The translations under genes and the position numbers were made by a program. Of a stretch of 64,000 nucleotides of DNA, positions 1 to 18,293 are shown one piece after another (the first letter of the stretch is position 1; every line of letters begins with the position of its first letter). The notes below the pieces were generated by a model. That model searched no databases. It was not told the origin of the DNA and saw only the letters and a program-made list of their open reading frames with translations. Source of the stretch: Phycisphaeraceae bacterium (GTDB taxonomy: Bacteria > Planctomycetota > Phycisphaerae > Phycisphaerales > Phycisphaeraceae); contig JANQSF010000125.1 of assembly GCA_028284155.1 (NCBI GenBank), forward strand, positions 1 through 64,000. Reading direction: 5' to 3'.

Positions 1-3000
1 GCGCCGCGACGAACGCGCCGACCAGCGCAGCCTTGCTGATCAGGCCGCGCACCGACCCGTCAATAATCGCGTCGAACCCGTCGGCCACGTCGCCGAAGCT
101 CAGGTTGCCGGACGAGCCGTTGTTGATCCGCCAGACGCCGTCGGCCGTGCCGCGCACGTTGACATTGCCCAGGACCTGGTCGTCGATGTCGCCCGTGCCG
201 TTGACGGTGACATTCACGCCCGCGTCGCCGGCGACGTCGCGCGAACCGGTCACGTCGAATCGTTTGATGGCGTCGGCAACGACGTTGCCGTCCAGCCAGG
301 TCACGGCCCGCACGGCGTTGATCGCCGCCGCCGCCGCGTTGGCCAAGCCCGTTTCGCCCAGCCGGAGGTTGCGCAACTCGTTCGCGACGGTCAGGGCGAG
401 ATTGTTCACTGCGCCGCGGATATCGACATTGCCGCCGTCGCCTACCACATCGACGGACAGATCGGTCGCGCCGCCCGCGACGCGCAGATTGCCCAGGTCC
501 TGACGCGCGTCGGGATCGCCGTTGACCTGGATCTCAACGTCGTTCAGATTGCCCGCGCCGGCGACGGGGTCGTCCGCCCGGCGGTCGGCCCGCGTCTGCA
601 ACGTCTTGATCGCATTGGCCGTCGCGCCGCCGCCGGTCCACGAGCCGGACGTCGAAAGGTTGTTGATCGTGCGTGCGAAAACAGTCAGGTTGTTCGCGAT
701 GCCCGTTGACAGCTTGTTCAACGGCCCGCCGATGAGCATCTCGACGTCGGTGACCGTGTCCCGGAACGTCAGGTTGCCCGCCGCGCCGCCGCTGAACGTC
801 TGAATGAGCAAACCGCTGGCCGGCCCGGCGACGGTCACGTTTCCGAGCGACGTCCGCGCGTTCGGGTCGGTGTTGTTGACGATGATGTCCGCCTCGAACG
901 GTCCGGCGTTGCCCGTGCTGCGATTGCCCTTGATATTGATTCGGCCGATCGACGGCGCTTCGACCTTGTCCGGCACGGTCTCGTGATTCGTGTCGGTCCA
1001 CGACGTGGCCGTGAGCGTGCGGATCGGGATCAGCGACGTCAGTACGAGGTCGGTGATCTCATTGAAGAACAGCGTCGCCGCGTCGCGCACCCCCGCACCG
1101 ACGTTGCTGATCGTGATGTTGTGATCGTCGGCCACATTGTTCAGGCGGATGGTCTTGGCCGGCCCGGTTTCAAGGTCGCCCAGCAGGTCGACGTTCTTGG
1201 CGTTGATCTGATTGATCGGTCCGTCCACCATAATGTCGCCGACGGTCGTGATATCTCGGCCGCGCAGTTGGACGGTTAGGTTCGACCGCGCGTTGGTCCC
1301 TGTCGCGATGATCGCCAGCGCGTCGGCGTTGATATCGCCGGCCGGCACGCGCACCTCGAGGTTGCCCTCGCCGCGCAGCGACACCGTCACGTCCTTGCCG
1401 TTCGAGTCGGTGTATTCGACGCGCCCGCGCGAGTCGGGCAGCAGCGTGTTGAATTCGTCCTCAGCCGCGATGACAATGTTGTCCACATCGACACTCGCGT
1501 TCACGTCGCCCGTCGTCGCCAGCCGGACTTCGAGCGTCACGGTCTGACCGGCGAACGGCCGCAGGTCGATCGGCCCGCTCGGGATGAACACGTCGCTCTC
1601 AAAGTCCGCGCCATTGAACGTCGCAATCGTCTGGCCGTCGATGTTCACCTGCAACGCGTCGCCATCGCCGCCGAAGCCCGGCGGGAATCGGAAGTCGAAG
1701 TTCAGGTCGGTCACCGTGGCGGGCAGTTCCACGTCCTGCTGGATCGCGCCCTCCGAACCCTCGAACAGTGTCGAGAAGAAGTTCTCGACACTATCGACGA
1801 CCTCGCTGGCGATCGTCACGTTCGGCGCGTCGCCGGCGATCGTGAAACCGCTGAAATCGCCGGGCCCAAACACGCCGCTCAGCACGGCCTTGCCCTTCTT
1901 GACCGACAGGATGTAATCCTCGACCTCGCCGTCGGGCGCCAGGCCCGTCGGGTCGAGGCCGCCGCTACGGCTGTACCGGAATCGGGCGTACGTCTCACCA
2001 GGCAGCGCCGTCGAGGGCACGCTGATGAGCACGGGGATCGTCAACGCACCGGGCCCCGGCACGGTGATCGGGAAACTGTCAGCGATCTGTTCGCCGGGTG
2101 ACCACGTCCCGTCTTGATTCCAATCGACCCATGCGTCAAGGAAACCGCTGGACGCAGCGGTGACGGTGTACGCCGACGTGAAGCCGGGCAGTATTCCCGC
2201 GACGCTCAGATCGACGCCGTCTTCGTCGTCGCCGTCGGTGTCCGTGTCGTCGCCGTCGGCGGGCACGGTCGGTTGGCCGTCCGGCTCGTCATCGACGCCC
2301 GCGCCCAGGAAGACGGGGCTGGCCAGGAAATGCCGCGCGCCGTCGCTGGCGCGCAGCGTTGGGTATGTCGGGTCCGGCGCATCGCCGTAGTCGATCCCCG
2401 CGCCCGGGATCGGTCGGTTCAGGAAGAAGAAGTCGTTGACGGGTTCGCCGCTGGTCACCTGCACGTTCAGATGCCCGTGCAGATTCTGACCGTCAACCTG
2501 TCCCGCGTCTTCGCCGTTAAGCGCTTCCCATCCTTCGGGAACAACTTCCACAAAGTCGTACAAGCCGGGGGCCAGGCCGGTGTGCAGGAAGAGACCGCTC
2601 TCGGTGGCCGGATCGATCACGTCGTCGCCGTTGATGTCGAAACTCTGTGTCACGCCGATGGCGATTTCCTGTCCGGCAAACCGGTTGCCGGCCTCATAGA
2701 TGCGCACTTCAAAGCCGTTGGCCCGTTCGTCCGTCCCATCAAGCCCGTCGCCCAGGATGTCGTGCCACTTGGGAATGTGGATATCGACCGGTTCAATGTA
2801 CGGGTGGAACAAGATGATGACCTCGTTGTTGACCGTGATGTGGGTCTCACGAGGGAGCCGCGCAAGCAGTGGCAGCTTGTCAAGCACCTCTATGTCGTAC
2901 TCGCCCGGCTCCACGTCCTCAAACTCGTATTCGCCGTCGATGTTGGTCACGGCCTGCAACACGGGCCCGCCCCCGTCAGGCGTCAGCGTGACATCGACAC

Positions 3001-6000
3001 CCGCCACAGCGGGCTCGCCCAGGTCGCGCACGCCGTTGCCGTTGAGGTCCTCGAACGCGATGCCCGTAATCGACACGCCGATCTGCACCGGGATAACGGT
3101 CAGATCGACGGGGTCGGAAGTCGTCTGGTTGTCCGACGTGTCGATTGCGACAGCCGTGATAACAAAGGGTTCGCCCGCGTTCGGTGCGGTCAAGTCGGCC
3201 TCGTATGGGAATGTTGAATCTGTCGCGGCGAGCACGCCGTTGACGAGAAAATCAACCTGTCGCACCTGCACGTCGTCGGTCGCATCGACCTGGAACGGAA
3301 CGGTCGAGCCTTCGACGACCTCCGACCCGTTCTGCGGCGTCGTGATCGACGCCGTTGGGGGCGTGACGTCCTGAATCTCCACCTCCGTCGTCGCCTTGCG
3401 CTTCTGGCCGGTCGTATCCGTCACCTCGACTTCGACTCTGCTTTTGCCGACCGTCGGGTTGGGAACGTTGTTCAGGTACTGGATGTTCTTGAGCGCATCT
3501 GAGTACTGCTCAGCCAAGCCGGGTCCGAACACGATCACCCTGACGTGCAGGTCCGAGATTACAACGGGACCACCCAGAATAACCTCCAGGGGTACGGCGA
3601 TTTCAGTAATCAGCGGTTGGTCATCTCTAAAGAACTCGATCTCCATTTGTGAGAGAGTTTCATCCGCTGTGATCAAAATGTCATCCAGGAAGATCGATGC
3701 GGCTTCAGTTTCGTTGGGATCGAGTAACGAACTCCCGCCTGAGAAGCCGTCGATGTCGCCGTTGAGGTCGAGTAGGAGGTCGTCAAACGTGTCGGGTACG
3801 CCGTCGCCGTTTTCGTCGAACAGGCCGCCGTTTGCGTCAAATATGCCGGGCAACGGCGGCGCGAACGGGTCGCCGAAATCGTAGACGACGTCGGCCGAAA
3901 ACGGCTCCGGCTCGAACGCCGCGCCGTGAGTCGAGACACGATTCGCGTCGGAAAGGAGGAAGTGCCACTCCGCGCCCGCCTGGGGCGGAGCGCCGGTACG
4001 GTCAGGCGTCCACAGGCCGATGTCGTCGATGCCATCCTGGTTGATATCAGCGGAAATCGGTCGCTCGCGAACGCCAATGAAGCCGAAGTTGATCGTCGCA
4101 TCGGCCAAGCCGTTGCGGTCCAGGTCGAACATGAACTGGTCATCAGCCCACGCGCCCAGGTCGTCGACACCGTTGCCGTCGAAGTCGCCAACGATGGGGA
4201 ACCCGGTCATGTTCGTCGGTATCACGGAATCAACGATGTAGTCGCCGTTGGTATCCAACAGCCATTCTGAGCCATTGAAGATGCCGACCTCGTCGCCTTC
4301 AGTGGCGGCGCTGAAGTCGCCCGCGACCGGCAGGCCGTTGAGTCTGTCGCCGCTGAACCCCGAAGCGCTTTGGTTGTACCCGCCGTCCGGGCCGTCCGGC
4401 ACGCCGTCGTTGTCGCCGTCGATCAGGAACCGCCACGGGCCCTGAATCGTGCCGCCGACAGAGCCGTACACCCCGAGTTTGTCGAAACCGTCTGCCGTGC
4501 CGCTTTCCACGTTGATGAAATTCCCCGCAAAGAAGTCGTCACTGCCCAGTGCTCGCGAAAAGTTGACGTCCCCGCCCCGAAACGACACCTCGTCGTCTCC
4601 CGATGCGGGGTTCCAGAGATTATCGCCATTGGCATCGATCGCGATGATGCCGTCGAACGTCGTGGCGAGATTCGGCCGACTGTTGACATTGAAGTGCGCG
4701 ACAAAGTCGCCGCCGGGTACGTTGTTGCCGTCGCCGTCGAGTTGATTGCCGTCACTGTCGGTAAGGGTATCGCTGATCGTGAGCGTGAAGCGATCGTCCG
4801 GCAACGGCTCGAAGAAAGAGAAAATGATCTCGCCGGTCGCGACCTCGCCGGCCTGGACGACGTCCGGGTTCCAAGCGACATCGAACGGGATGGGCGTCCC
4901 GTCTTGTTCGAGTTGAATGAAGTTGCTGAATACGGTTGCCGGCGGGAAGACCGGATCACCGGCGTCGGGGTTGAAGAAGTTGCGGATCGGCCAATCCTGA
5001 ACCTGCAGTGCAATCTCGGTCACCGGTTCGTTCACGACGGCGGGCTGTTCATTGAACACATCGTCGATCAGGGGCAGGCCGCCGAAGTAGAGGATGTCGG
5101 TGTCCCCGTCATTGCCGAAGTCGATGTGCGTCACGCCCCATCCGAGCGTGTCGCCCAGCGGGTTGGCAGTTACGCCGCCAAAATCAGTTGCGCCGACGTT
5201 GCCGCGGCTGGTCATCGTCGTGCCTGGTGGGAAGGCCTGTTGATGGAATAACAGGTCGATCGTGCCGCCCTGACCGAAGTTGTAGGCGAACGGCGTGTTG
5301 ACATTGCCAGCGCTCGTGTTGTTGGCGATGTCGAGCTCGATCCGGCCGCCGGCGCCCGCGATGATCCCTATGCCGGAGACACTGAATTGCGTATCCGTGG
5401 GGGCCGCGACATTGTTGCCGACGACCGAAAGCCGATGATTGCCCTGCCCACCCGCGCCCGTGCCAAAGAAGATGCCGCCGAAGACGGAGCTAAGCACAGT
5501 GTTGTTGTGAATCCGCGCGACCGCATCCACGGCGTCGGCGATCACATCGACGCCGTTGAACGCGATGTTCGAGAGCGTGAGATTACTGACATCAACGTTG
5601 ACGGCGTTGCGGGTCAGAATCCCGTTCGCACCCGTCGTGTCAATCATGCCACCGTCGATCACGACACGGCCCTGATGGTCTTCGACGAGAACGGCTTCGC
5701 CGCCGCTCCGCAGCAACTCGATCTGTCGCGCGACCAGTCGGGCCGTAGCGGCCGAAAGCCGATCGCGGACGGATTCGTTGGAAGCGTCATTGACGGACAG
5801 ACGGTCGAACACCATCCAGCCGGTGTTGTTGACCACGTCAACCCCGATCGTGCCGGGCGTGTCGATATTCGCGCTTCGGAGGAGGGCGTCGCCCGGACCG
5901 TCCTTGAACAGGCCGACACCGCTTGGCGTGTTGATGTTCAGCGTGTCGCCACTGACCTCGAACGTCGCGCCGGCGTTGTCCACCAGCGACACGCCCGTCG

Positions 6001-7279
6001 TCCCGCCCGTGATCGTCACCGTGTTCAGCGACACGTCGAGCGACGAATTGGTCATGTTCCAGCCGACGTTGGTCGGGTTGTCGATCGTCACGTCGCCCGT
6101 GACGGTGAGCGTGCCCGACGTGTTGTTGATCGACACGCCGTCGTCGTCGCTGTTGGTCGAGGTGACGTCTTCGAAGACGAGTGACACGTCGACGCCGTCG
6201 AGTTCGATGGCGTTGCGGTTGGTCGTGTTGATGCTGTTGTTGAGCCCGGAGACCTCGACTGTTCCGCCGCCGGTGGCGATGAGGCCGGCCTGGTTAATCG
6301 CGCCGGCGGAAAGCCCGCCGTTGGTGACGCGGAGTGTGGCGTTGTTGTTGTCGCGGGCAAAGATGGCGCGAACGACCTTGCTCCCGCCGCTGAAGACGGC
6401 CGCGGAGTTCGTGTTGTCGTCGAACAGGATGTAGCCGGCCGTGAAGTCGGCCGCGACGTCAATCAGCCCGCCGGTTGTGTTCTGCACGCTCGCGCCGCCG
6501 TTGATTACACCGTCGAGGATGACCAGCGGCGCGCCGCTGTTGACGCCGAACTTTGGCACGCCGGCGACGTTCCCGCCCGCGAACGACACGCCGTCGAAGA
6601 TGAATGTGCCGTTAGCGAATTGCAGGTTGACCGCCTGCCCCTCGGCGTCGAAGCCGTAGTTGGTCACAACGACCTGCGTGTCGGCCGTTGTGCTGTCAGC
6701 CCGGATACCGCTGCCGCCGATCGGGATGTCGGTGACGGCGACGTTGTCGATGACGACGTTGGGCGACTGGTTGACACCGCTGGCCAATCGCATCGCCGCC
6801 TGGGTGAAGTTGCTGAAGGACAGGTCGCTCAGGTCGAGCGACGTGTCCTGCACCGTGAGCCCGCTGGACGTACCCGCGATGGCCGCGCCGTCGAGCGCGA
6901 CGACCGGCGTGTCGACAAAGCCCGGCTGCGAGCCGCCGTTGATCGATAATTCTTCCGTGACATTGGGCAGGTTGCTTTGCAGCGCGATCGTGTGTGGCCC
7001 CGCGCCGGGGATGTCAAACTCGATCACGTCCGCGCCGGCGGCCGCGTTGGCCTGATCGAGCGCGTCGCGCAATGAACCGGCGCCGGCGTCGTTCGTGTTC
7101 GTCACACTGAACGTCGCCAGCAGGATGCGCGGTTCGAGCGCTTCGACCGCCCGGTCCCACACTGGCTTGCGCCCCTCGCGGTGAGCGACTCGTTCCTTCT
7201 TTGTCGCATTTGACTGCGTCGTGACCAAGCGACCCTCGGATCGCCGTCCCCATACCCGACCGGACTGCCCGTACTGCAT
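1..7279 (-). CDS. Giant LEPR-x-LL secreted/surface protein, C-terminus beyond window
   Basis: Reading the minus strand from the ATG at 7279 gives about 2,426 codons with no stop down to base 1, so the gene continues off the left edge. An in-frame TAA lies five codons upstream and AGGGG sits about 9 bases before the ATG, which fixes the start. Residues 48-54 are LEPRILL, the planctomycete LEPR-x-LL motif near the N-terminus of giant exported proteins. It is followed by a CSLREA-like stretch (SLRDALDQAN) and beta-helix-type repeats. Around residue 1030 there are Asp/Gly-rich FG-GAP/EF-hand-like motifs (GDFDGNGVDDLG), near 1306-1400 an Ig-like segment, near 1405 an SdrD-B-like segment (EDLNGNGVRDLGEP), and at about 1630-1790 a GEVED domain (DYGDAPDP to GEVEDYIL). 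The remainder has repeats of about 120 residues with LGNVxVxG motifs. Probably an adhesin or cell-wall protein; this is inferred from architecture only. Confidence 0.9.
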   Translation of the reverse strand, partial: MQYGQSGRVWGRRSEGRLVTTQSNATKKERVAHREGRKPVWDRAVEALEPRILLATFSVTNTNDAGAGSLRDALDQANAAAGADVIEFDIPGAGPHTIALQSNLPNVTEELSINGGSQPGFVDTPVVALDGAAIAGTSSGLTVQDTSLDLSDLSFSNFTQAAMRLASGVNQSPNVVIDNVAVTDIPIGGSGIRADSTTADTQVVVTNYGFDAEGQAVNLQFANGTFIFDGVSFAGGNVAGVPKFGVNSGAPLVILDGVINGGASVQNTTGGLIDVAADFTAGYILFDDNTNSAAVFSGGSKVVRAIFARDNNNATLRVTNGGLSAGAINQAGLIATGGGTVEVSGLNNSINTTNRNAIELDGVDVSLVFEDVTSTNSDDDGVSINNTSGTLTVTGDVTIDNPTNVGWNMTNSSLDVSLNTVTITGGTTGVSLVDNAGATFEVSGDTLNINTPSGVGLFKDGPGDALLRSANIDTPGTIGVDVVNNTGWMVFDRLSVNDASNESVRDRLSAATARLVARQIELLRSGGEAVLVEDHQGRVVIDGGMIDTTGANGILTRNAVNVDVSNLTLSNIAFNGVDVIADAVDAVARIHNNTVLSSVFGGIFFGTGAGGQGNHRLSVVGNNVAAPTDTQFSVSGIGIIAGAGGRIELDIANNTSAGNVNTPFAYNFGQGGTIDLLFHQQAFPPGTTMTSRGNVGATDFGGVTANPLGDTLGWGVTHIDFGNDGDTDILYFGGLPLIDDVFNEQPAVVNEPVTEIALQVQDWPIRNFFNPDAGDPVFPPATVFSNFIQLEQDGTPIPFDVAWNPDVVQAGEVATGEIIFSFFEPLPDDRFTLTISDTLTDSDGNQLDGDGNNVPGGDFVAHFNVNSRPNLATTFDGIIAIDANGDNLWNPASGDDEVSFRGGDVNFSRALGSDDFFAGNFINVESGTADGFDKLGVYGSVGGTIQGPWRFLIDGDNDGVPDGPDGGYNQSASGFSGDRLNGLPVAGDFSAATEGDEVGIFNGSEWLLDTNGDYIVDSVIPTNMTGFPIVGDFDGNGVDDLGAWADDQFMFDLDRNGLADATINFGFIGVRERPISADINQDGIDDIGLWTPDRTGAPPQAGAEWHFLLSDANRVSTHGAAFEPEPFSADVVYDFGDPFAPPLPGIFDANGGLFDENGDGVPDTFDDLLLDLNGDIDGFSGGSSLLDPNETEAASIFLDDILITADETLSQMEIEFFRDDQPLITEIAVPLEVILGGPVVISDLHVRVIVFGPGLAEQYSDALKNIQYLNNVPNPTVGKSRVEVEVTDTTGQKRKATTEVEIQDVTPPTASITTPQNGSEVVEGSTVPFQVDATDDVQVRQVDFLVNGVLAATDSTFPYEADLTAPNAGEPFVITAVAIDTSDNQTTSDPVDLTVIPVQIGVSITGIAFEDLNGNGVRDLGEPAVAGVDVTLTPDGGGPVLQAVTNIDGEYEFEDVEPGEYDIEVLDKLPLLARLPRETHITVNNEVIILFHPYIEPVDIHIPKWHDILGDGLDGTDERANGFEVRIYEAGNRFAGQEIAIGVTQSFDINGDDVIDPATESGLFLHTGLAPGLYDFVEVVPEGWEALNGEDAGQVDGQNLHGHLNVQVTSGEPVNDFFFLNRPIPGAGIDYGDAPDPTYPTLRASDGARHFLASPVFLGAGVDDEPDGQPTVPADGDDTDTDGDDEDGVDLSVAGILPGFTSAYTVTAASSGFLDAWVDWNQDGTWSPGEQIADSFPITVPGPGALTIPVLISVPSTALPGETYARFRYSRSGGLDPTGLAPDGEVEDYILSVKKGKAVLSGVFGPGDFSGFTIAGDAPNVTIASEVVDSVENFFSTLFEGSEGAIQQDVELPATVTDLNFDFRFPPGFGGDGDALQVNIDGQTIATFNGADFESDVFIPSGPIDLRPFAGQTVTLEVRLATTGDVNASVDVDNIVIAAEDEFNTLLPDSRGRVEYTDSNGKDVTVSLRGEGNLEVRVPAGDINADALAIIATGTNARSNLTVQLRGRDITTVGDIMVDGPINQINAKNVDLLGDLETGPAKTIRLNNVADDHNITISNVGAGVRDAATLFFNEITDLVLTSLIPIRTLTATSWTDTNHETVPDKVEAPSIGRINIKGNRSTGNAGPFEADIIVNNTDPNARTSLGNVTVAGPASGLLIQTFSGGAAGNLTFRDTVTDVEMLIGGPLNKLSTGIANNLTVFARTINNLSTSGSWTGGGATANAIKTLQTRADRRADDPVAGAGNLNDVEIQVNGDPDARQDLGNLRVAGGATDLSVDVVGDGGNVDIRGAVNNLALTVANELRNLRLGETGLANAAAAAINAVRAVTWLDGNVVADAIKRFDVTGSRDVAGDAGVNVTVNGTGDIDDQVLGNVNVRGTADGVWRINNGSSGNLSFGDVADGFDAIIDGSVRGLISKAALVGAFVAA

Positions 7280-7475
7280 GATGTGCCCCTGTTAGAAAGG
7301 TGCTTGTTCTCCCACACGGCGAACGCCGCGCGCCAAACCGACGGCCCGCTTGGAACCGATCAGAAATGATAACCGATGCGATATCGCATTGGAACGGGCA
7401 CACCTGGATGAACGTTACGCCGTCCAAGAGCGCGGCAAACGCCTGAACTCAGGCATTTGGACGACTCGACTTGGT

Positions 7476-7984: not shown

Positions 7985-8007
7985 AATACGCCCGACAGGA
8001 TTCGAAC
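7985..8007 (+). repeat. Distal attachment site (left end of element)
   Basis: Perfect 23-bp copy of the 3' end of the tRNA-Arg(CCT) gene (it contains TACGCCCGACAGGATTCG), in the same orientation as the copy at 18218-18240. No other part of a tRNA is present here, as expected for the end of an integrated element distal to the intact tRNA. Identity ends on both sides: the left copy is flanked by TC and AC, the right copy by GG and CT. Confidence 0.92.
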
Positions 8008-8190
8008 ACACCTAACGAGACAACTGGTAAAGATGCAATCACTGAATCAGGCGCAGCAAAAAGCGCAGCAGACACGGCCGATGGCTCGCTTGCTGAGGCG
8101 CTGGCGATGATCGCTCGACTGCCGTTGACGGACGCTGAAAAGGCCGAGGCTGTGCGGCGGCTGCTCGCATCGGGCGATTCAGCTCGTTAG
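8008..8190 (+). pseudogene. Detached 3' end of the integrase gene (predicted 60-aa tail)
   Basis: Continuing from the left attachment core in the frame used by the integrase at the right core gives 60 codons and a TAG at 8188-8190. The segment is alanine-rich and helical: GSLAEALAMIARLPLTDAEK followed by AEAVRRLLASGDSAR. It has no good start codon of its own; the open frame upstream (from 7810) runs antisense through the neighbouring lipoprotein gene. In an excised circle it would be fused in frame to integrase residue 430. I therefore read it as the displaced C-terminus of the integrase and not as a separate gene. Confidence 0.7.
8049..8071 (+). repeat. Candidate integrase arm site, left copy
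   Basis: Perfect 23-bp repeat of 18074-18096 in the same orientation. Each copy contains two GCGCAGCA octamers separated by AAAA (12-bp period). This copy lies 42 bp inside the left core. It is read in a different frame here (GAAKSAA) from the frame in the integrase (AQQKAQQ), so it is conserved as DNA and not as peptide. Confidence 0.6.
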
Positions 8191-8405
8191 CAATGGCACA
8201 CGAAACGAAGCGAGGGTCGCCCCCGACTTGTCAGCCTGGTCGACGCTTGGCCGACACCCCCAACGGCGGTTAGGGACGGGATCGTGGCGCTGGTTAAGGC
8301 GGCACGGTGACTGGCGGGACGCTGCCCCTACCCCGTTTAGGGGGATTCGTCGCCGCAGACAGGCTTGGTAGGCTCCGGCTAAACCCATCTAACAAGGAGC
8401 GAGCC

Positions 8406-9173
8406 ATGCGCCTATGTCGATTTGCCGTCATCGCAATCGCATTGACACTCTTCGTTGTGGTTCGCCCAGCATCGGCCGAGTCCATCGGAGTCGGACACGA
8501 TCTATTTATGACCGTTCCCGGTCAGACTAATCTCATAGTTGACGCCGGGCCTTTCGGAGGGACTGGATTCGTCGAGTTCCCTTTGGAGGGTATTCCGTTT
8601 GGTCCTGGAAACACGGATACCATTGTTGAGCGGCTGGATGGTCACGACTTCGCAACTCAAGGCAACACAGCGACAATTCAAATCGAATTGGTAGCACTTT
8701 CTCTTCAGAGCGTCGCCCCAGTCAATATCGGCGGGAATCTCTGGGACGTACACATCACGGGTTCCCCCTCAACAACGCCAGGTACACTCATCGTGAATAA
8801 GACGAGTTCGGGAGGCGGTGATTTTCAGGTGGATCTTTTGCCAATCGTCGTTGACATCACTTTTAACCAACTCAACAGCCCTACTGAGATCACACAGACC
8901 GATGAGTTCATCTTCGACGGCGCGGGAGTGTGGTCGTTCAATCCAGGGCCGGCCAATCAAAACAACGCTAACCATCCATCGGGTGGGCTTTACATCGGCG
9001 TCGACCCACTAACCGGCGAAAAGGCTGTCACCATACTGACCGGTGCGGGTGCGAGCGGGACTGCGACCCATGCATTTGTACCGTCGATGCCCACCCCCGC
9101 CGCAGCCGGACTCGGCCTGCCGTTGTTGGGCCTGCTTGGCGTGACGCGCCCACGGCGTCAACGGGCGGCGTGA
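8406..9173 (+). CDS. Secreted protein with PAAAGLGLPLLGLLG sorting tag
   Basis: This 255-aa protein starts at ATG 8406 behind AAGGAG. It has a clear signal peptide (MRLCRFAVIAIALTLFVVV then a cleavage-like ASAES). The middle is beta-rich and acidic with no domain I recognise (VGHDLFMTVPGQTNLIVDAGPF near its start). The C-terminus is PTPAAAGLGLPLLGLLGVTR followed by a basic end (PRRQRAA): a proline motif, a short hydrophobic helix and arginines, as in the PEP-CTERM/exosortase class. It is probably exported and processed at the membrane. Its last ~80 bases and the following terminator are almost identical to those of the gene at 10749. Confidence 0.85.
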   Translation: MRLCRFAVIAIALTLFVVVRPASAESIGVGHDLFMTVPGQTNLIVDAGPFGGTGFVEFPLEGIPFGPGNTDTIVERLDGHDFATQGNTATIQIELVALSLQSVAPVNIGGNLWDVHITGSPSTTPGTLIVNKTSSGGGDFQVDLLPIVVDITFNQLNSPTEITQTDEFIFDGAGVWSFNPGPANQNNANHPSGGLYIGVDPLTGEKAVTILTGAGASGTATHAFVPSMPTPAAAGLGLPLLGLLGVTRPRRQRAA

Positions 9174-9200
9174 CCGACACCACAACTTGGACACCGACAG

Positions 9201-9228
9201 CCCCGGCGAGAGCCGGGGTTGTTTGTTG
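9201..9228 (+). terminator. Rho-independent terminator after the 8406 gene
   Basis: Stem CCCCGGC, loop GAGA, stem GCCGGGG, then TTGTTTGTT. It begins 27 bases after the stop codon and is part of a repeated 3' module shared with 11478-11501. Confidence 0.85.
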
Positions 9229-9742
9229 CTGAGGCCTTTTCGAACAAGGTCGCACCCCATCGAACGCGACCACGGGGTGAGTAGATGAGGGTGGGATGGT
9301 GGCAATAGCGCGGTGGCTGGCGAATCAAACCCCAATACCTCATTCAGGGGGGGATCGACTCAAGACGTCAACACACACTTGTGATTCTGAGGCAAATCCA
9401 TTAATCGCCCGCAAGGCTCACTTCGACTCGGGTAACCAACTGTAAGCACAGGGGCTTATAAGGCTCTATGTGTGGCGCAGGCTCTGGCGCCAAGGACCGC
9501 CCAAACGCCTCGAACGACCTCGACCGTCCCACCTAATCGACGCTTAGCCGCCCCAAGTTCCCTCAGTCAAGGCAGGGACAGTGGCAACAGCTAGGGACGC
9601 CGCAGCCGCCACTTGACTCGTTCAGCGAAAAGACTGTACTGTAGGTGCACTTTGATCCAGGGGCTGGGGCAAATGCTACTTCCACTTCGCTAGCCATTTC
9701 TGTGATTTCACTCGAAGTTCCACTGAAAGGACTGGAGCGATC
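9229..9742. other. Intergenic stretch without a convincing gene
   Basis: About 510 bp between the terminator and the next secreted-protein gene. Short open frames here lack ribosome sites and recognisable sequence. It probably holds the promoter of the 9743 gene; no clear promoter boxes could be assigned. Confidence 0.5.
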
Positions 9743-10696
9743 ATGCCGCACAATCGACTGATCATTTGGGGTTGGATGAGTATTTGTTTCGTTGCCACTG
9801 CGTTCAATATGCCGATCAACGCCGCACCACTCCTGTTGCAGGACTGGTCGGTGAATCCTCATCCGGTCATTGGGCCGGGTACGAACTCTCCGGCCGCCGG
9901 AGTCACAGTCTTGAAGACCGGCGGCCTCTTTCAAGCTTGGCACGACAATGCTGGCGCCGGAATGAACAAGGTCATGCGCACCACTTCAACGGATGGTGTT
10001 ACCTGGAGCGAGTCCCAGGTCGTCTATACACCTATGAACCCAGAAGACTCAAATCCTGAAGTCGTTTTGAAGAACGGAACCTATCACCTTTGGGTTGGCG
10101 CTCGTGGCGGGACCACATCCCTGGCAACGGAGTATGCAACGTCCAGCGACGGAATAACCTGGACGAAACAAGGGCAGATCACAACTGACAATTTCTTCCA
10201 GTTCCGTTCTGTCCTTGCCACTTCGACCGGATTCGAAGCCTGGTATCGGCCTAGAGACTCAGTAGACGGCTATCACTATGCCACGTCGACTGACGGCTTG
10301 AATTGGCTTGACGAAGGTGTCGTCTTGCCGGTCGGCGTCGGCGGAGAGTTTGACGAGAACATCGCCGGACTCGACGTCCTGAAGATCGGCGGCTCTTATC
10401 ACATGTGGTATTCCGCCGGTGTTGGAGGCACGAACAAGCCGGCCTACGCCACATCATCCGATGGTGTGAATTGGACCAAGCACGGAATCCTCGATGGATT
10501 CGGTGCGGTTAGCGGAAACATCTCCTCCATTTCCGTTTTGCACGAGAACAACGAATTGCAGATGTGGTTTCACGAAGACAACACAGCAAGCGTGTTTCAT
10601 GCCACATCCCCCGTTGTTCCCTCCCCCGCCGCCGCAGGCCTCGGCCTGCCTTTGCTTGGCCTTCTCGGTTTGACACGTCCCCGTCGACTACGCTAG
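9743..10696 (+). CDS. Secreted beta-propeller-like protein with sorting tag
   Basis: The 317-aa product has an N-terminal signal peptide ending near NMPINAAP. The body consists of repeated blades with S-x-DG-x-x-W motifs: TSTDGVTWSE, SSDGITWTKQ, TSTDGLNWLD and SSDGVNWTKH. These resemble the Asp-box-like repeats of sialidases and the five-bladed propellers of GH32/GH43-type glycoside hydrolases, so carbohydrate binding or cleavage is plausible. I cannot identify a full catalytic set. The C-terminus is VPSPAAAGLGLPLLGLLGLT then RPRRLR, the same sorting tag as its neighbours. Translation starts at ATG 9743 behind GGAG. The next gene begins 52 bp downstream with no terminator between, so the two may be co-transcribed. 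Confidence 0.85.
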   Translation: MPHNRLIIWGWMSICFVATAFNMPINAAPLLLQDWSVNPHPVIGPGTNSPAAGVTVLKTGGLFQAWHDNAGAGMNKVMRTTSTDGVTWSESQVVYTPMNPEDSNPEVVLKNGTYHLWVGARGGTTSLATEYATSSDGITWTKQGQITTDNFFQFRSVLATSTGFEAWYRPRDSVDGYHYATSTDGLNWLDEGVVLPVGVGGEFDENIAGLDVLKIGGSYHMWYSAGVGGTNKPAYATSSDGVNWTKHGILDGFGAVSGNISSISVLHENNELQMWFHEDNTASVFHATSPVVPSPAAAGLGLPLLGLLGLTRPRRLR

Positions 10697-10748
10697 CACT
10701 CTTAAGAACGACATTCACATTCGAAAGCTTTGAGCAAAGGAGCGCACG

Positions 10749-11450
10749 ATGAACCGACAGAACGCCATAGCAATCGCAATCACGTTTTGCGCGTATGCAA
10801 GTTCAGTCGAGGCGGGCTCTGTTACGTTTCAGCAAGATGTTAGTGGCTACAGCGGCACGCAAGACACACTGCTGCGTGAAAACCTCGCAGACACTTCGCA
10901 CGGAAACAACGTAACGCTGAAAGTTGATGGGAATAGCTCTCCAACGGCTGCGGCTGACCAAAGTTTGATTCTGTTTGACTCGATTTTTGGCAACGGCCCC
11001 AATCAGATCCCCCTCGGCGCACCCATTACAAGTGCAACGTTGACACTGAAAGTGACCAATTCAGGAACGGGCGGAGAATTCCATCGCATGCTGATGCCCT
11101 GGGGCGAAGACGACACCTGGAACGACTGGACGAACGGCTTGGATCAGTTTGGAACGGAGCTGACTACATCACCCGACGTAATCGCTGGTCCCGCAAGCGG
11201 CACGTTTGTGATCGATGTGACTTCCAGCGTTCAGGCTTGGTCGTCAGGTTCGAGCAACTATGGATGGGCGATCCTTTCAAAGGACAACTCGACGGACGGC
11301 TGGATCTATCACTCTTCTGAAACTGCCGATCTGTCCGACCGTCCATTGCTCTCTGTCGTCTACACACCCACCCCCGCCGCGGCAGGCCTCGGCCTGCCGT
11401 TGTTGGGCCTGCTTGGCATCACACGCCCACGGCGTCAACGGGCGGCGTGA
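10749..11450 (+). CDS. DNRLRE-domain secreted protein with sorting tag
   Basis: This 233-aa protein follows AAAGGAG. After a short signal peptide (ending SSVEAGS) it contains QDTLLRENLADTSHGN, characteristic of the DNRLRE domain, a beta-sandwich of extracellular proteins. Further support: ITSATLTLKVTN, a conserved EDDTWNDWTNG region and FVIDVTSSVQAWSSG. DNRLRE domains usually accompany cell-surface or carbohydrate-related proteins; no catalytic role is assigned. The C-terminus PTPAAAGLGLPLLGLLGITR plus PRRQRAA matches the tag of the 8406 gene at DNA level, although the bodies of the two proteins are unrelated. It closes a likely two-gene unit with 9743 and is followed by a terminator. Confidence 0.87.
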   Translation: MNRQNAIAIAITFCAYASSVEAGSVTFQQDVSGYSGTQDTLLRENLADTSHGNNVTLKVDGNSSPTAAADQSLILFDSIFGNGPNQIPLGAPITSATLTLKVTNSGTGGEFHRMLMPWGEDDTWNDWTNGLDQFGTELTTSPDVIAGPASGTFVIDVTSSVQAWSSGSSNYGWAILSKDNSTDGWIYHSSETADLSDRPLLSVVYTPTPAAAGLGLPLLGLLGITRPRRQRAA

Positions 11451-11477
11451 CCGACACCACAATCTAGACACCGACAG

Positions 11478-11501
11478 CCCCGGCAAATGCCGGGGTTGTT
11501 T
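11478..11501 (+). terminator. Rho-independent terminator after the 10749 gene
   Basis: Stem CCCCGGC, loop AAAT, stem GCCGGGG, then TTGTTTT. Same design, same distance from the stop and nearly the same flanks as 9201-9228. Confidence 0.85.
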
Positions 11502-11718
11502 TGCATCTCGATGGATTTGCCGGGCGGAATTGGCCACCTTCACGGTGGTGGGGGTTGCGGGGCCACTCTGCCACCGCCAGGGCCCCGTGACCGGCCCCGA
11601 CCCGTAACGGCCGGCAAACCAGAGTGCTTCCCGTCTGCACCTGACACACGCCGATTGCACCAACGCCTCGATCCGTCGGTATACTGCGCCCATCACGTCG
11701 AACGGCCGGAGAGAAATC

Positions 11719-12555
11719 ATGTGCTTTAGAGTGACTGCAATCGCTGCCGCCCTTGCCTTCACCCTGGCGACCGATGCAGAGGCGGTACTGCTTCAGGAGG
11801 TCGTTCACCTATTTGACGACCCGTCAGGGAATCGAGTTCTCAACAACTCCGATCGTATTAGAGTGCCTCCAGACATGCTACGAGTCGTGCAAGCGAACGT
11901 TGCCGGATTGGGCTATACGGCCACCGGATCAATTGGCACTCTCGGAAACCTGGGCATCAGTTCGAGTCAGTTCACGGCGGGATCGTCGCAGAATGCAGTA
12001 AGAATCGAAGACACATTTGTGAACCTGCTGGGTGTACCCCGAACGGCAGTCGCAAACTTTATCATTAATGGTGGCATGGTCACCATGATCGGCCCAGGCA
12101 CAGCAGAGTTTTCCCTCGCAGTCGAAGCACGGATCTTTGAGAATTCGACCTTTGTTGATTCGGAAATATTCTTATCTCAGTTTGACCTCACCGCAGCTGG
12201 CTTCGGACCGGTTGCCTTCAGTCCGTCGGGTGACGACATCGGTGCTTTCCTGGCCGATCCCAATCGAGTGGAGATCCCACTTTCGTTTCATTCGTTGGAT
12301 CTCGGCGTCATACCCGCCAACGGCAGCGTTGATTTAAGCTACCAAGTAATCTTCAACACTGACTTTCCCAGCGGGTTAGAGGGCGTGTTCTTTGAGTTCA
12401 GTGACCCGTTGAACGTTGACGGCCGTGGTGAGTTCCCCGAGGTGGTGTTTTCCGGCGGTCCTGCGCCGGGCAACAACGCTGTCCCCGAGCCCGCCACCGC
12501 CACGCTCGCATTGCTGGGCATCGCTGGGCTGATGCGACGACGCCGTGCGGCGTGA
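11719..12555 (+). CDS. PEP-CTERM secreted protein, unknown function
   Basis: This 278-aa protein starts at ATG 11719 (upstream GGAGAG). It has a signal peptide ending near TDAEAV and a canonical PEP-CTERM tail: VPEPATATLALLGIAGLMRR then RRAA. The body (residues ~25-245) is beta-rich with no family I recognise. The tail differs from the PAAAGLG variant of its three neighbours, so the cluster combines two tag types, presumably recognised by the same or related sorting enzymes; no exosortase is encoded in the window. A weaker terminator of the same family follows. Confidence 0.85.
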   Translation: MCFRVTAIAAALAFTLATDAEAVLLQEVVHLFDDPSGNRVLNNSDRIRVPPDMLRVVQANVAGLGYTATGSIGTLGNLGISSSQFTAGSSQNAVRIEDTFVNLLGVPRTAVANFIINGGMVTMIGPGTAEFSLAVEARIFENSTFVDSEIFLSQFDLTAAGFGPVAFSPSGDDIGAFLADPNRVEIPLSFHSLDLGVIPANGSVDLSYQVIFNTDFPSGLEGVFFEFSDPLNVDGRGEFPEVVFSGGPAPGNNAVPEPATATLALLGIAGLMRRRRAA

Positions 12556-12583
12556 CTGACAGAACAACTTGAAACCTTCACAG

Positions 12584-12608
12584 CCCCGGCAATCGTTGGG
12601 GTTGTTTG
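12584..12608 (+). terminator. Terminator after the PEP-CTERM gene
   Basis: CCCCGGC, loop, GTTGGGG, then TTGTTTGTT. A degenerate version of the two terminators upstream (two G-U pairs). Confidence 0.6.
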
Positions 12609-12773
12609 TTGCGCGGCATATCCTCTACAGGGGCCTGACCCTTGGGCCAACCTCTGACAGTGCTGATCCGTACTTGTGACAAGACGAACGTCAGCGAAAC
12701 CCAGCAGCAGTCTGAATGTCAGAGTCAAGAAACAACCGTGCCAAGTCACTCTAACAAGCCAGAGGATCGACCG

Positions 12774-14850: not shown

Positions 14851-15096
14851 ATGACGACCACACCCCCCGCCGCCGGCGAGCGTATCGCCGGGCCTGATCG
14901 AGCACCGGCCGAACTGCTCGACGTTTCCGACGTGGCGAAGCTGCTCAACTGCTCGCCACGGCATGTCTACCGCCTGGCCGACGCCGGCCGAATGCCACGA
15001 CCTGTGAGGCTCGGCGCGCTCGTGCGCTGGCGAGCCGATGAACTGCGCCGATGGATCGCCGATGGCTGCCCGACGGGGGAAGGGGGTGCGCCATGA
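14851..15096 (+). CDS. AlpA/excisionase-type helix-turn-helix protein
   Basis: 81 aa. Residues ~23-72 (LLDVSDVAKLLNCSPRHVYR to ALVRWRADELRRWIADG) form the MerR-like winged HTH of the HTH_17/AlpA/Xis group: the LDVSDVAKLL start, the recognition helix CSPRHVYRLADAG, and the RW wing that contacts DNA. Such proteins act as recombination directionality factors or as transcription regulators of integrative elements. It overlaps the next gene by four bases (ATGA at 15093-15096), so the two are translationally coupled. In this setting it is the best candidate for the factor that directs excision by the 16951 integrase. Confidence 0.85.
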   Translation: MTTTPPAAGERIAGPDRAPAELLDVSDVAKLLNCSPRHVYRLADAGRMPRPVRLGALVRWRADELRRWIADGCPTGEGGAP

Positions 15097-15557: not shown

Positions 15558-16730
15558 ATGTTACGCGATGCACTTGCTTACATCCGGCGAGGCTGGCCGG
15601 TGTTCCCGTGTCGGCCGCGCTCCAAGAAACCCGCGACCCCACAAGGCTTCCATGACGCCACAACCGACGCTGAACGTGTCCAAGAATGGTGGGCCCGTCG
15701 AGCCGTCTACAACGTCGCAATCGCAACAGGGGCCACGTCCGGGCTGGTGGTGATCGACGTGGACCCGCGCCATGGCGGCGACGTGACGCTTGAAGCCCTG
15801 ACGGCGGAACACGGCCCGCTGCCGAAGACGCCAACGGCGCAGACGGGCGGCGGCGGGTTGCACTACCTGTTTCAGCATCCCGGTGGCTACGTCAAGGGCC
15901 GGGCGGGTGCGCTGGGGCCCGGCCTCGACGTGAAGGCTGACGGCGGCTACATCGTCGCACCGCGCAGCAAACATCCGGGGGGCGGCGACTACCGCTGGAT
16001 TGTTTCGCCCGACGACGCACCGCTGGCGGCGCTGCCGACGTGGATGGCGTCGATGCTGACCATTCGGGACGCCGATTCGGAATCAAGCAATGACGACCGT
16101 GATGGCTGTGTTTCTTGTGTCTCTGAGTCTCTGAGTCTCTGCGCCTCTGTGTCTCTGTGTCAGTGGATTGAAAAGGCCATGGCGGCAACGCTGCCGACCG
16201 GACCTGGGCAACGGAATCGCCGCATCTTCACCTTTGCACAATGGCTCAAGACACACCCGGAGTCGAAGGACGCAACGATGGGAACGCTTCGCCCGCACGT
16301 CATGGCTTGGCACAAGGCGGCGGCGGCGAACATCAGCGGCGAACACGGTCCCGATGAAACATGGGCGGACTTCATTCACGCATGGGGAGCGGTCAAGTAT
16401 CCGCTCGGCGCTGGACCGCTGGCTGAGGCGTTGGCGGCGGCGGACGGGACGGACATGCCGGCGTGCGCCGAGCAGTACGCCAACGAAACGACGCGCCGGC
16501 TCATTCGATTGTGCCGGGAGCTACAACGCCGAGCGGGCGACAAACCGTTCTATCTGGCGTGCCGACCGCTCGGGGACGTGCTCGGTATTGACCACGACCG
16601 GGCGAACAAGCTGCTCGGGATGCTCTGCACGGATGGCATTCTGGAGCGCGTCTACAAGGGGCACTCCGGGCGGGCGAGTGAGTTTCGATACATCGGGCTT
16701 GACAACGCTACCGATACAGGTGATAATTAA
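15558..16730 (+). CDS. PrimPol-type primase (bifunctional DNA primase/polymerase)
   Basis: 390 aa. Residues 1-170 match the archaeo-eukaryotic-primase PrimPol domain of mobile elements: RRGWPVFPCRPRSKKPATPQ, the metal-binding VIDVDP with D67 and D69, TGGGGLHYLF with H102, and GLDVKADGGYIVAPRS with D124. The ~20-residue linker near 190 is a low-complexity insertion encoded by a TCTCTG-type repeat. The C-terminal half is helical and ends in a winged-helix-like segment (PLGDVLGIDHDRANKLLGML). Enzymes of this group make primers and extend DNA for replication of plasmids, phages and satellites. No helicase domain is present, so the element would borrow one from the host or a helper. The next gene begins 4 bp later. 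Confidence 0.9.
   Translation: MLRDALAYIRRGWPVFPCRPRSKKPATPQGFHDATTDAERVQEWWARRAVYNVAIATGATSGLVVIDVDPRHGGDVTLEALTAEHGPLPKTPTAQTGGGGLHYLFQHPGGYVKGRAGALGPGLDVKADGGYIVAPRSKHPGGGDYRWIVSPDDAPLAALPTWMASMLTIRDADSESSNDDRDGCVSCVSESLSLCASVSLCQWIEKAMAATLPTGPGQRNRRIFTFAQWLKTHPESKDATMGTLRPHVMAWHKAAAANISGEHGPDETWADFIHAWGAVKYPLGAGPLAEALAAADGTDMPACAEQYANETTRRLIRLCRELQRRAGDKPFYLACRPLGDVLGIDHDRANKLLGMLCTDGILERVYKGHSGRASEFRYIGLDNATDTGDN
16115..16162 (+). repeat. TCTCTG/TCTGTG tandem repeat inside the PrimPol gene
   Basis: About seven degenerate units of GTCTCTGA / CTCTGTGT type. It is in frame and encodes a Ser/Cys/Leu/Val run (VSESLSLCASVSLC) between the primase domain and the C-terminal domain. Confidence 0.85.
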
Positions 16731-16950: not shown

Positions 16951-18246
16951 ATGGCTTCATTGGTTACGTATGACGACGGATTGCGACGGATCGACTTCAC
17001 GCTTACGCCGAACGGCCGGCGTCAAACTGTCAGGCTCGGCCGTGTCAGTGCGAAACACGCCAAGACCGTACTGGCGAAGGTCGAAGCGCTGATTGCCGAC
17101 AAACTGACACAACGCCCGCACGACACCGAGCTAAGCCGCTGGCTGGCTTCACTGGACGAAAAGATGCTGGCACGTCTGCGGGCCGTGGGCTTAGCCGATG
17201 GCGTTGGCGTGACACAAACGACGCTCGGCGAGTTTCTCGACCGGGCGTTGGCGACGCTGGCTGTGAAGCCGGGCACGCTCTCGTTTTACGAACAAGTGAA
17301 GCGCAACCTGATCGACTACTTCACCGCATCCCGGCTGTTGCGCGACATCACGCCGGAAGACGCTGACACCTGGCGGACGTGGCTGGTGGACAATCAAGGG
17401 CTTTCGACCGCGACCGTCGGCCGGCGGGTGATCGGGGCGCGCACGCTCTGGCGGCGGGCTGTGCGATGGAAACTGATCGGCGACAATCCGTTCCAAGACG
17501 TGCGGGGCGGCTCACAAGCCAACGAATCCCGCAAGCAATTCGTCCCGACGGCAACGATTGAAGCGATCATTGCCGAAGCGCCCGACGCCGAATGGCGTCT
17601 GCTGATCGGTCTGAGCCGTTACGGCGGGCTCCGCTGTCCATCCGAGCACTTGGCGCTGACATGGCGCGACGTGGACTGGGAACGGGGCACGCTGCGGGTA
17701 CGCTCGTCGAAGACGGCACACCATGAGGGGCACGCTGAGCGAGTCGTCCCGCTCTTTCCCGAATTGCGATCGCTGCTGTTGAGCGCCTACGAAGCCGCGC
17801 CCGACGGGGCCGAGCATGTCATCACCCGCTATCGCGATACGTCGGCCAACCTTCGGACGCAATTCAACCGGATCATCCGACGTGCGGGCTTCACGCCGTG
17901 GCCGCGCCTATTCCACAACCTTCGGGCAAGCCGTGAAACCGAGCTACTGCGCCAATACGACCTGGCGACCGTCTGCCGATGGATCGGCAATTCCCCGGCC
18001 GTTGCGGCGAGGCACTATGCCACGAGTGTTGACCTTGACGCTGACTTCCGACGGGCGGCTGGGCTCGACACCGAGGCGCAGCAAAAAGCGCAGCAGTCAC
18101 CGTCCGTCAGGCGTGAACGGGGAGTGTCAACGCGCACCACGCCGCATACCCGAAACCCCCGTGGCGGTAGCGCAGGCAACGATTGTCACGAATCGACAGT
18201 CGCAGGAAAAGGTGGGGAATACGCCCGACAGGATTCGAACCTGTGA
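16951..18246 (+). CDS. int: Tyrosine recombinase (integrase) that overlaps the tRNA
   Basis: 431 aa in the present configuration. The N-terminal part (residues ~1-190) holds arm- and core-binding domains. The catalytic domain has R228 (YGGLRCPSE), H322 and R325 (LFHNLRAS), N in place of the usual third histidine (WIGNS) and the nucleophile Y356 (ARHYA). After ~residue 375 comes an unstructured tail with AQQKAQQ. The last nine codons (YARQDSNL and stop) lie inside the attachment core and the antisense of the tRNA-Arg gene. The frame is open through the core up to the tRNA sequence beyond it, so the C-terminus depends on what DNA follows the core: here two codons of tRNA DNA, in the excised circle a 60-aa tail. 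It should catalyse integration and excision at the 23-bp core. Catalytic residues are complete, so the protein is probably active. Confidence 0.93.
   Translation: MASLVTYDDGLRRIDFTLTPNGRRQTVRLGRVSAKHAKTVLAKVEALIADKLTQRPHDTELSRWLASLDEKMLARLRAVGLADGVGVTQTTLGEFLDRALATLAVKPGTLSFYEQVKRNLIDYFTASRLLRDITPEDADTWRTWLVDNQGLSTATVGRRVIGARTLWRRAVRWKLIGDNPFQDVRGGSQANESRKQFVPTATIEAIIAEAPDAEWRLLIGLSRYGGLRCPSEHLALTWRDVDWERGTLRVRSSKTAHHEGHAERVVPLFPELRSLLLSAYEAAPDGAEHVITRYRDTSANLRTQFNRIIRRAGFTPWPRLFHNLRASRETELLRQYDLATVCRWIGNSPAVAARHYATSVDLDADFRRAAGLDTEAQQKAQQSPSVRRERGVSTRTTPHTRNPRGGSAGNDCHESTVAGKGGEYARQDSNL
18074..18096 (+). repeat. Candidate integrase arm site, right copy
   Basis: Second perfect 23-bp copy of 8049-8071 (paired GCGCAGCA octamers with an AAAA spacer), 121 bp inside the right core and within the integrase coding sequence. 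Confidence 0.6.
18218..18240 (+). repeat. tRNA-proximal attachment site (right end of element)
   Basis: Perfect 23-bp repeat of 7985-8007; 18220-18240 is the 3' end of the tRNA-Arg gene including the T-arm. Integration restored a complete tRNA. Confidence 0.92.
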
Positions 18247-18293
18247 CCTGCGCATTAGGAATGCGCTGCTCTATCCGACTGAGCTACGGGCGC
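18220..18293 (-). tRNA. tRNA-Arg (anticodon CCT)
   Basis: Reading the minus strand from 18293: acceptor GCGCCCG paired with CGGGCGT (first pair G-U), D-arm GCTC/GAGC, anticodon stem GCGCA/TGCGC around the loop TTCCTAA (anticodon CCT, reads AGG), T-arm ACAGG-TTCGAAT-CCTGT and discriminator A. CCA is not encoded. The gene is intact after integration and lies in the same direction as the M48 gene upstream. Confidence 0.95.

Follow-up and report, generated by a model that had tools for sequence, protein, structure and literature searches.

The integrase gene of a 10.2 kb element in a Phycisphaeraceae genome ends inside the tRNA gene that the element has entered, which raises the question of what becomes of the enzyme when the element integrates and when it leaves. 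Within the window, by which is meant the whole 64,000-nucleotide stretch that was analysed, the gene occupies 16951-18246 on the plus strand and encodes, in the integrated state, a tyrosine integrase of 431 aa matched by Pfam families PF00589 (E 4.8e-9) and PF13102. It meets the tyrosine recombinase criterion of catalytic R, K, R, and Y; R228, K254, R325, and Y356 are invariant among its relatives (alignment A1), and position 322 is H or Q. The frame crosses a 23-bp attR core (18218-18240), which overlaps the 3′ end of the target gene, a tRNA-Arg(CCT) restored by the element (18220-18293, minus strand, ARAGORN), and ends at 18246 within the antisense of this tRNA, two codons past the core. The identical core, AATACGCCCGACAGGATTCGAAC, is found at attL (7985-8007), where the frame from 8008 is open for 60 codons up to a TAG at 8188-8190 (plus strand). 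Joining the integrase to 8008-8190 in silico yields a single open frame of 490 aa, in which the core codons specify residues 423-430 and R228, K254, H322, R325, and Y356 all lie upstream of them. In the integrated form, the 60 tail residues are exchanged for one residue and a stop. The predicted circle junction, which, given identical cores at the two ends, does not depend on the exact crossover point, joins CGACAGGATTCGAAC to ACACCTAACGAG, or residues QDSN to TPNE. By sequence, integration must swap the tail, a helical hairpin according to the model described below, for an end read from the tRNA, leaving a catalytically complete integrase of 431 aa, and excision must restore the 490 aa; there are no expression or recombination data, and no circle junction of the window element is available.

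Relatives of this integrase are present in 38 of 51 genomes of the same family, and 80 loci were recovered by scanning named species genomes, all carrying the label Planctomycetota apart from one bin assigned to Aquabacterium and two records whose title says merely “bacterium”. The integrase frame overlaps an antisense tRNA or tmRNA gene in 66 of these 80 loci, with Val, Glu, Leu, Ala, Met, Ile, Tyr, Lys, Phe, Asn, and Arg genes among the targets. Five more loci (L084, L089, L116, L125, and L149) were recognized by eye as entering tRNA 3′-end sequence, and in three (L086, L108, and L144) the frame closes 5-22 nt before reaching the tRNA. As the 66 overlapping frames show, integrases of this group as a rule end in the tRNA that they target, L086, L108, and L144 being among the exceptions. 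As the gene reads into its target, many planctomycete integrases end in tRNA-like peptides such as GLEP or DSNL. The C-terminus of the integrated form varies with each tRNA and is not itself conserved, and a tail attached to the integrase was found in none of the 80 chromosomal loci. Most of the sequences compared come from metagenome assemblies.

The missing ends were sought at attL, identified at each locus as the place upstream of the integrase gene where the tRNA-end sequence recurs exactly over at least 14 nt, and chosen without regard to reading frame. This resolved 28 distinct elements. Carried across the core copy, the integrase frame stays open for 51-112 codons in 27 of them, in many different tRNA and tmRNA genes; the sole exception is L108, whose tail is out of frame. 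Most tails share a pattern, namely a G-A-K/E-S-x-A stretch followed by a helix with W-P-x-L or L-P-L and then a second helix. A tail profile trained solely on six uninterrupted viral integrases matched the attL reading at E < 0.01 in frame in 17/28 elements, versus 1/28 and 0/28 in the other two frames, the single off-frame match being that of L108, and 1 of 560 control stretches was matched. Different elements read the tRNA T-loop in different phases, all three being used (by 16, 9, and 3 elements), and a single conserved tRNA frame therefore cannot account for the in-frame tail. In alignment A2, seven tail fragments were misplaced onto the catalytic part, and the tail in the A2 model rests on about six sequences.

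The window tail is itself recognized by the profile (domain i-E 4.3e-5), part of the whole-sequence score stemming from a second tail discussed below, and it has no matching family in Pfam, NCBIfam, or PHROG. Homologous tails were identified in, among others, four elements of the window clade, L071 (tRNA-Val), L073 (Ile), L074 (Ala), and L076 (Leu), with 53-54% identity to the window tail for the three of these four that were aligned. Pairs with the window tail gave dN of 0.11-0.42 and dS of 1.29-2.03 over 28 aligned codons, a dN/dS well below 1, and differences fell 95/54/160 on codon positions 1, 2, and 3. The window-clade tail is under purifying selection as a protein. This selection must act in the non-integrated state, since only then does the tail adjoin the integrase.

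Two further tail sequences were observed in the same genome. Behind the TAG at 8188-8190, the same frame encodes a second, canonical integrase tail (8191-8310, plus strand, HMM i-E 1.2e-7), with the sequence QWHTKRSEGRPRLVSLVDAWPTPPTAVRDGIVALVKAAR, which is absent behind the tails of L071, L073, L074, and L076; it could have been left over from an exchange of integrase ends, or could extend the protein by read-through. On another contig (C153, near 33072), a detached tail, L200, reads LAALINAWAELPEPVRLGILAMAEAARG and lies about 120 nt behind a weak match to a tRNA-Gln 3′ end (17/24) that reads PPGLE. It is likely to be the attL of a second element, given with the reservation that the preceding match is weak; beside this tail, no second integrase relative was found in the genome.

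No close relative of the window integrase was present in the plasmid and phage collections searched, and natural full-length forms were therefore taken from IMG/VR. Integrases with the tail attached occur there on the viral contigs L156/L195, L160/L161, L164, L165, L169/L170, and L172. L156, L164, and L165 carry a tRNA 3′-end fragment of 21-25 nt in mid-gene, directly before the tail; the corresponding match in L169 is weaker, and for L160/L161 and L172, which bear the tail, no tRNA-derived core could be assigned. The natural junction of L156/L195 joins RDSN to TPQN, compared with QDSN to TPNE in the predicted window circle. Relatives without the tail, mostly more distant, are also found on viral contigs (L155, L157-L159, L167, and others); the hairpin is therefore dispensable in at least part of the wider family. 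Two viral contigs, each about 7.3 kb long and encoding a related integrase, are circular, namely L163 (7,437 nt, terminal direct repeat of 123 nt), whose integrase is one 531-residue frame running across the contig ends, and L165 (7,355 nt, repeat of 69 nt). L163 also encodes a prohead protease and a DnaB-type helicase and is unusually small for a tailed phage; it is perhaps a satellite.

The full-length protein was modelled with AlphaFold on the natural relative L164 and not on the 490-aa window fusion. In the model, the N-terminal, core-binding, and catalytic domains are predicted with confidence and are followed by a disordered linker (383-457), which holds the arm and core codons, and then by a confident hairpin with helices at 456-474 and 477-493 (pLDDT 83-94). 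The window tail modelled alone likewise has helices at 21-37 and 42-57 (pLDDT about 94). The tail is thus predicted to be a two-helix hairpin, although the model does not show where it docks. By fold, the nearest solved structures are those of Tn1549 Int, XerA, and lambda Int. The first-pass annotation had claimed that the integrase frame runs through the 23-bp core and stops two codons later in the tRNA, and that the same core at 7985-8007 continues for 60 sense codons to 8190; both statements held at the sequence level, the second confirmed by the joined frame of 490 aa, and the helical nature that it gave to the tail agrees with the prediction. Its main proposal, a C-terminal trim from 490 to 431 aa on integration with the catalytic residues intact, draws support from the sequence, from the homologous tails at attL, from the selection acting on the tail, and from full-length homologues found in nature; such homologues ending in the tail had been its proposed test, and the viral contigs provide them.

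The DNA around the core carries a further signal. In all elements examined, the core lies between two copies of a 22-27 nt direct repeat, one about 105-167 nt upstream within the integrase gene and the other 36-55 nt downstream within the tail (typically about -145/+41). In the window, the 27-nt copies are 96% identical and comprise a probable P-arm Int-binding site at 18074-18100, encoding AQQKAQQ, and a probable P′-arm site at 8049-8075, encoding GAAKSAA; similar peptides are read from the two copies elsewhere, in different frames. Each copy is usually a double motif, such as GCGCAGCA-AAA-GCGCAGCA, whose halves are spaced by roughly one helical turn. The motif varies among elements and agrees within each, the match being 20.0/22 within an element versus 15.2/22 between elements (0/20,000 permutations). 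Synonymous change is also lacking in the codons of the P′-arm copy: among four window-clade members, whose pairs are not independent, 33/33 shared-residue codons were identical, versus 39/98 in the helix part. These repeats are likely to be arm-type integrase sites, with binding inferred in the absence of binding data. As covarying repeats flank the core within both gene and tail, a complete attP with probable arm-type sites would be embedded in coding sequence.

The explanation that we consider likely as a whole is an element with attP inside its integrase gene, two forms of the enzyme (490 and 431 aa), and a hairpin that aids integration; its functional part is inferred, without expression or recombination data. 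In this mechanism, attP (P arm, core, and P′ arm) would lie wholly within the 3′ part of the element's own tyrosine integrase gene. The circle would encode the 490-aa enzyme, with an N-terminal domain (probably arm-binding), core-binding and catalytic domains, a disordered linker, and the C-terminal hairpin; in the linker, low-complexity codons would double as the arm and core DNA sequences. Recombination with the tRNA-Arg gene would cut the integrase gene within the linker, so that the hairpin would remain at attL without an integrase domain and the gene, now ending in the tRNA two codons past the core, would encode a 431-aa enzyme whose catalysis is intact. The hairpin may support the integrative complex through subunit contacts or arm delivery; an incoming circle would then make an integration-competent enzyme, the tail favouring integration, and the trimmed enzyme of the integrated copy would not efficiently reverse the reaction on its own. 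Excision probably needs the AlpA-type HTH protein (14851-15096, plus strand; Pfam HTH_17 and Phage_AlpA, PHROG excisionase), a candidate excisionase and likely directionality factor. A bolder reading, which we hold more tentatively and would not yet favour, is that of a phylum-wide bacterial integrase group with a complete attP, including both arm-type sites, in its own coding sequence, where loss and regain of the hairpin would act as a sensor of integration state that sets the direction of recombination with the promoter unchanged.

Other readings of the same anatomy must be weighed. The overlap could be a compact module without any switch, which saves space and keeps the integrase gene and attP together on exchange; the hairpin would be needed once, on arrival, and the trimmed form would be a by-product without regulatory meaning. 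The complete attP within the gene, the non-conserved integrated C-terminus that differs with every tRNA, and a similar argument made for suicidal integrases in a review of archaeal elements (PMC8371274) all speak for it. However, an open frame is all that this reading would by itself require past the P′ arm, and it leaves unexplained the folded hairpin under selection that is found there; it falls short of being the more probable account but remains open. Alternatively, the tail could mark the circle form for proteolysis and integration give a stable form, as in the repressor of mycobacteriophage BPs. There is a bacterial precedent, as in BPs attP lies inside the repressor gene and integration shortens the product at its C-terminus, the lost piece being a degradation tag (PMC4557955). 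Such a stability switch is unlikely here, since the tail is a conserved (predicted) two-helix hairpin under selection along its length and not a short terminal degron, and its final residues vary between elements (SGDSAR, AGQG, and GKGAE). The 60 codons past the attL core could also be an accidental open frame, as long accidental frames are common in GC-rich DNA. This possibility is all but excluded and was rejected on the basis of homologous tails, purifying selection, natural fusions, and the control in the two other frames.

Compared with known systems, the closest precedent for the preferred reading, attP within the integrase gene, is myxophage Mx8, in which integration creates a new 3′ end and changes the specificity of the enzyme without inactivating it (PMC6070905). 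Mx8 and SSV are named by the authors of Islander as integrases known to extend across attP (PMC4383910). The C-terminal region of the Mx8 integrase was reportedly found in 1996 to be needed for integration. The window shares with Mx8 (AF396866, L197; IntP to IntR) the att core within the coding sequence and the replacement of the C-terminal region by a short host-encoded end, and the 533-aa Mx8 Int contains a tRNA-like antisense reading, STGLEPV. However, the Mx8 integrase is only distantly related (family profile full-sequence E 7e-5, no significant BLAST match) and was rejected as a close homologue. No homologous C-terminal region was found, the best tail-profile domain (E 0.36) lying outside the C-terminal region of Mx8 Int, and no comparable direct repeats surround the Mx8 core (best 14/20). 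The first-pass annotation had proposed a bacterial analogue of the archaeal SSV-type elements in which only the C-terminus is trimmed; an arrangement of this sort already has a bacterial precedent in Mx8, and SSV-type splitting is the wrong analogy. The “suicidal” archaeal integrases of this type also have the att site in the integrase gene and a tRNA target (PMC8371274), whereas their integration separates the N-terminal from the catalytic part as two inactive pieces. SSV-type disruption was rejected for the window, where the catalytic residues (228-356) precede those encoded by the core (423-430) and stay together, intact, in one protein; the SSV-type family Phage_integr_3 (PF16795) was not matched in the Pfam search, which returned only PF00589 and PF13102. 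With BPs, the window shares an attP in a gene whose product is shortened at the C-terminus, but there the gene is a repressor, so the BPs-type criterion is not met. ICEKp1, ICEclc, and ICEEc1 show state-dependent switching of the int promoter (PMC13023037), and their Int production depends on integration state; the promoter changes in these elements since int starts beside the tRNA, while the window gene ends at the tRNA and it is the protein that changes, its promoter side being the same upstream DNA in both states. Of the two effects that the first-pass annotation had suggested for the switch, a bias in expression is argued against by this anatomy as far as the promoter is concerned, and a bias in reaction direction remains an inference without recombination data.

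The principle is already known from Mx8, and what appears new, within the literature searched, is the clade-wide occurrence, the tail domain, and the coding arm sites; no report of these or of planctomycete elements of this kind was found, with subscription journals mostly outside the search. What seemed a private curiosity of one myxophage thus appears to be a rule for a whole group of planctomycete elements. It qualifies the archaeal review's statement that only archaea have recombinases that disrupt their own gene (PMC8371274), as far as alteration of the gene on integration is concerned. It also means that integrases annotated from chromosomes lack their natural C-terminus, and genome tools could use it as a simple rule for locating attL and attP and for deriving the full-length enzyme from sequence. 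Whether directionality is controlled by a removable domain can now be tested directly.

Among the remaining genes of the element, a Prim-Pol primase was identified at 15558-16730 (plus strand; PF09250, 4.2e-51). Four cargo ORFs with C-terminal anchor-like motifs lie at 8307-12555; three of them have a nearly identical 3′ end (AAAGLGLPLLGLLG.TRPRR), and a terminator-like hairpin is common to three to four of the cargo 3′ regions (9090-9229, 10619-10692, 11367-11506, and 12535-12612), so that they resemble a set of duplicated cassettes with PEP-CTERM-like ends. In L071, the nearest relative found in named genomes, inserted in tRNA-Val, this cargo is replaced at 1625-7348 by a restriction-like set consisting of a Fic protein, a ResIII/DEAD helicase, and an N6/N4 DNA methylase.
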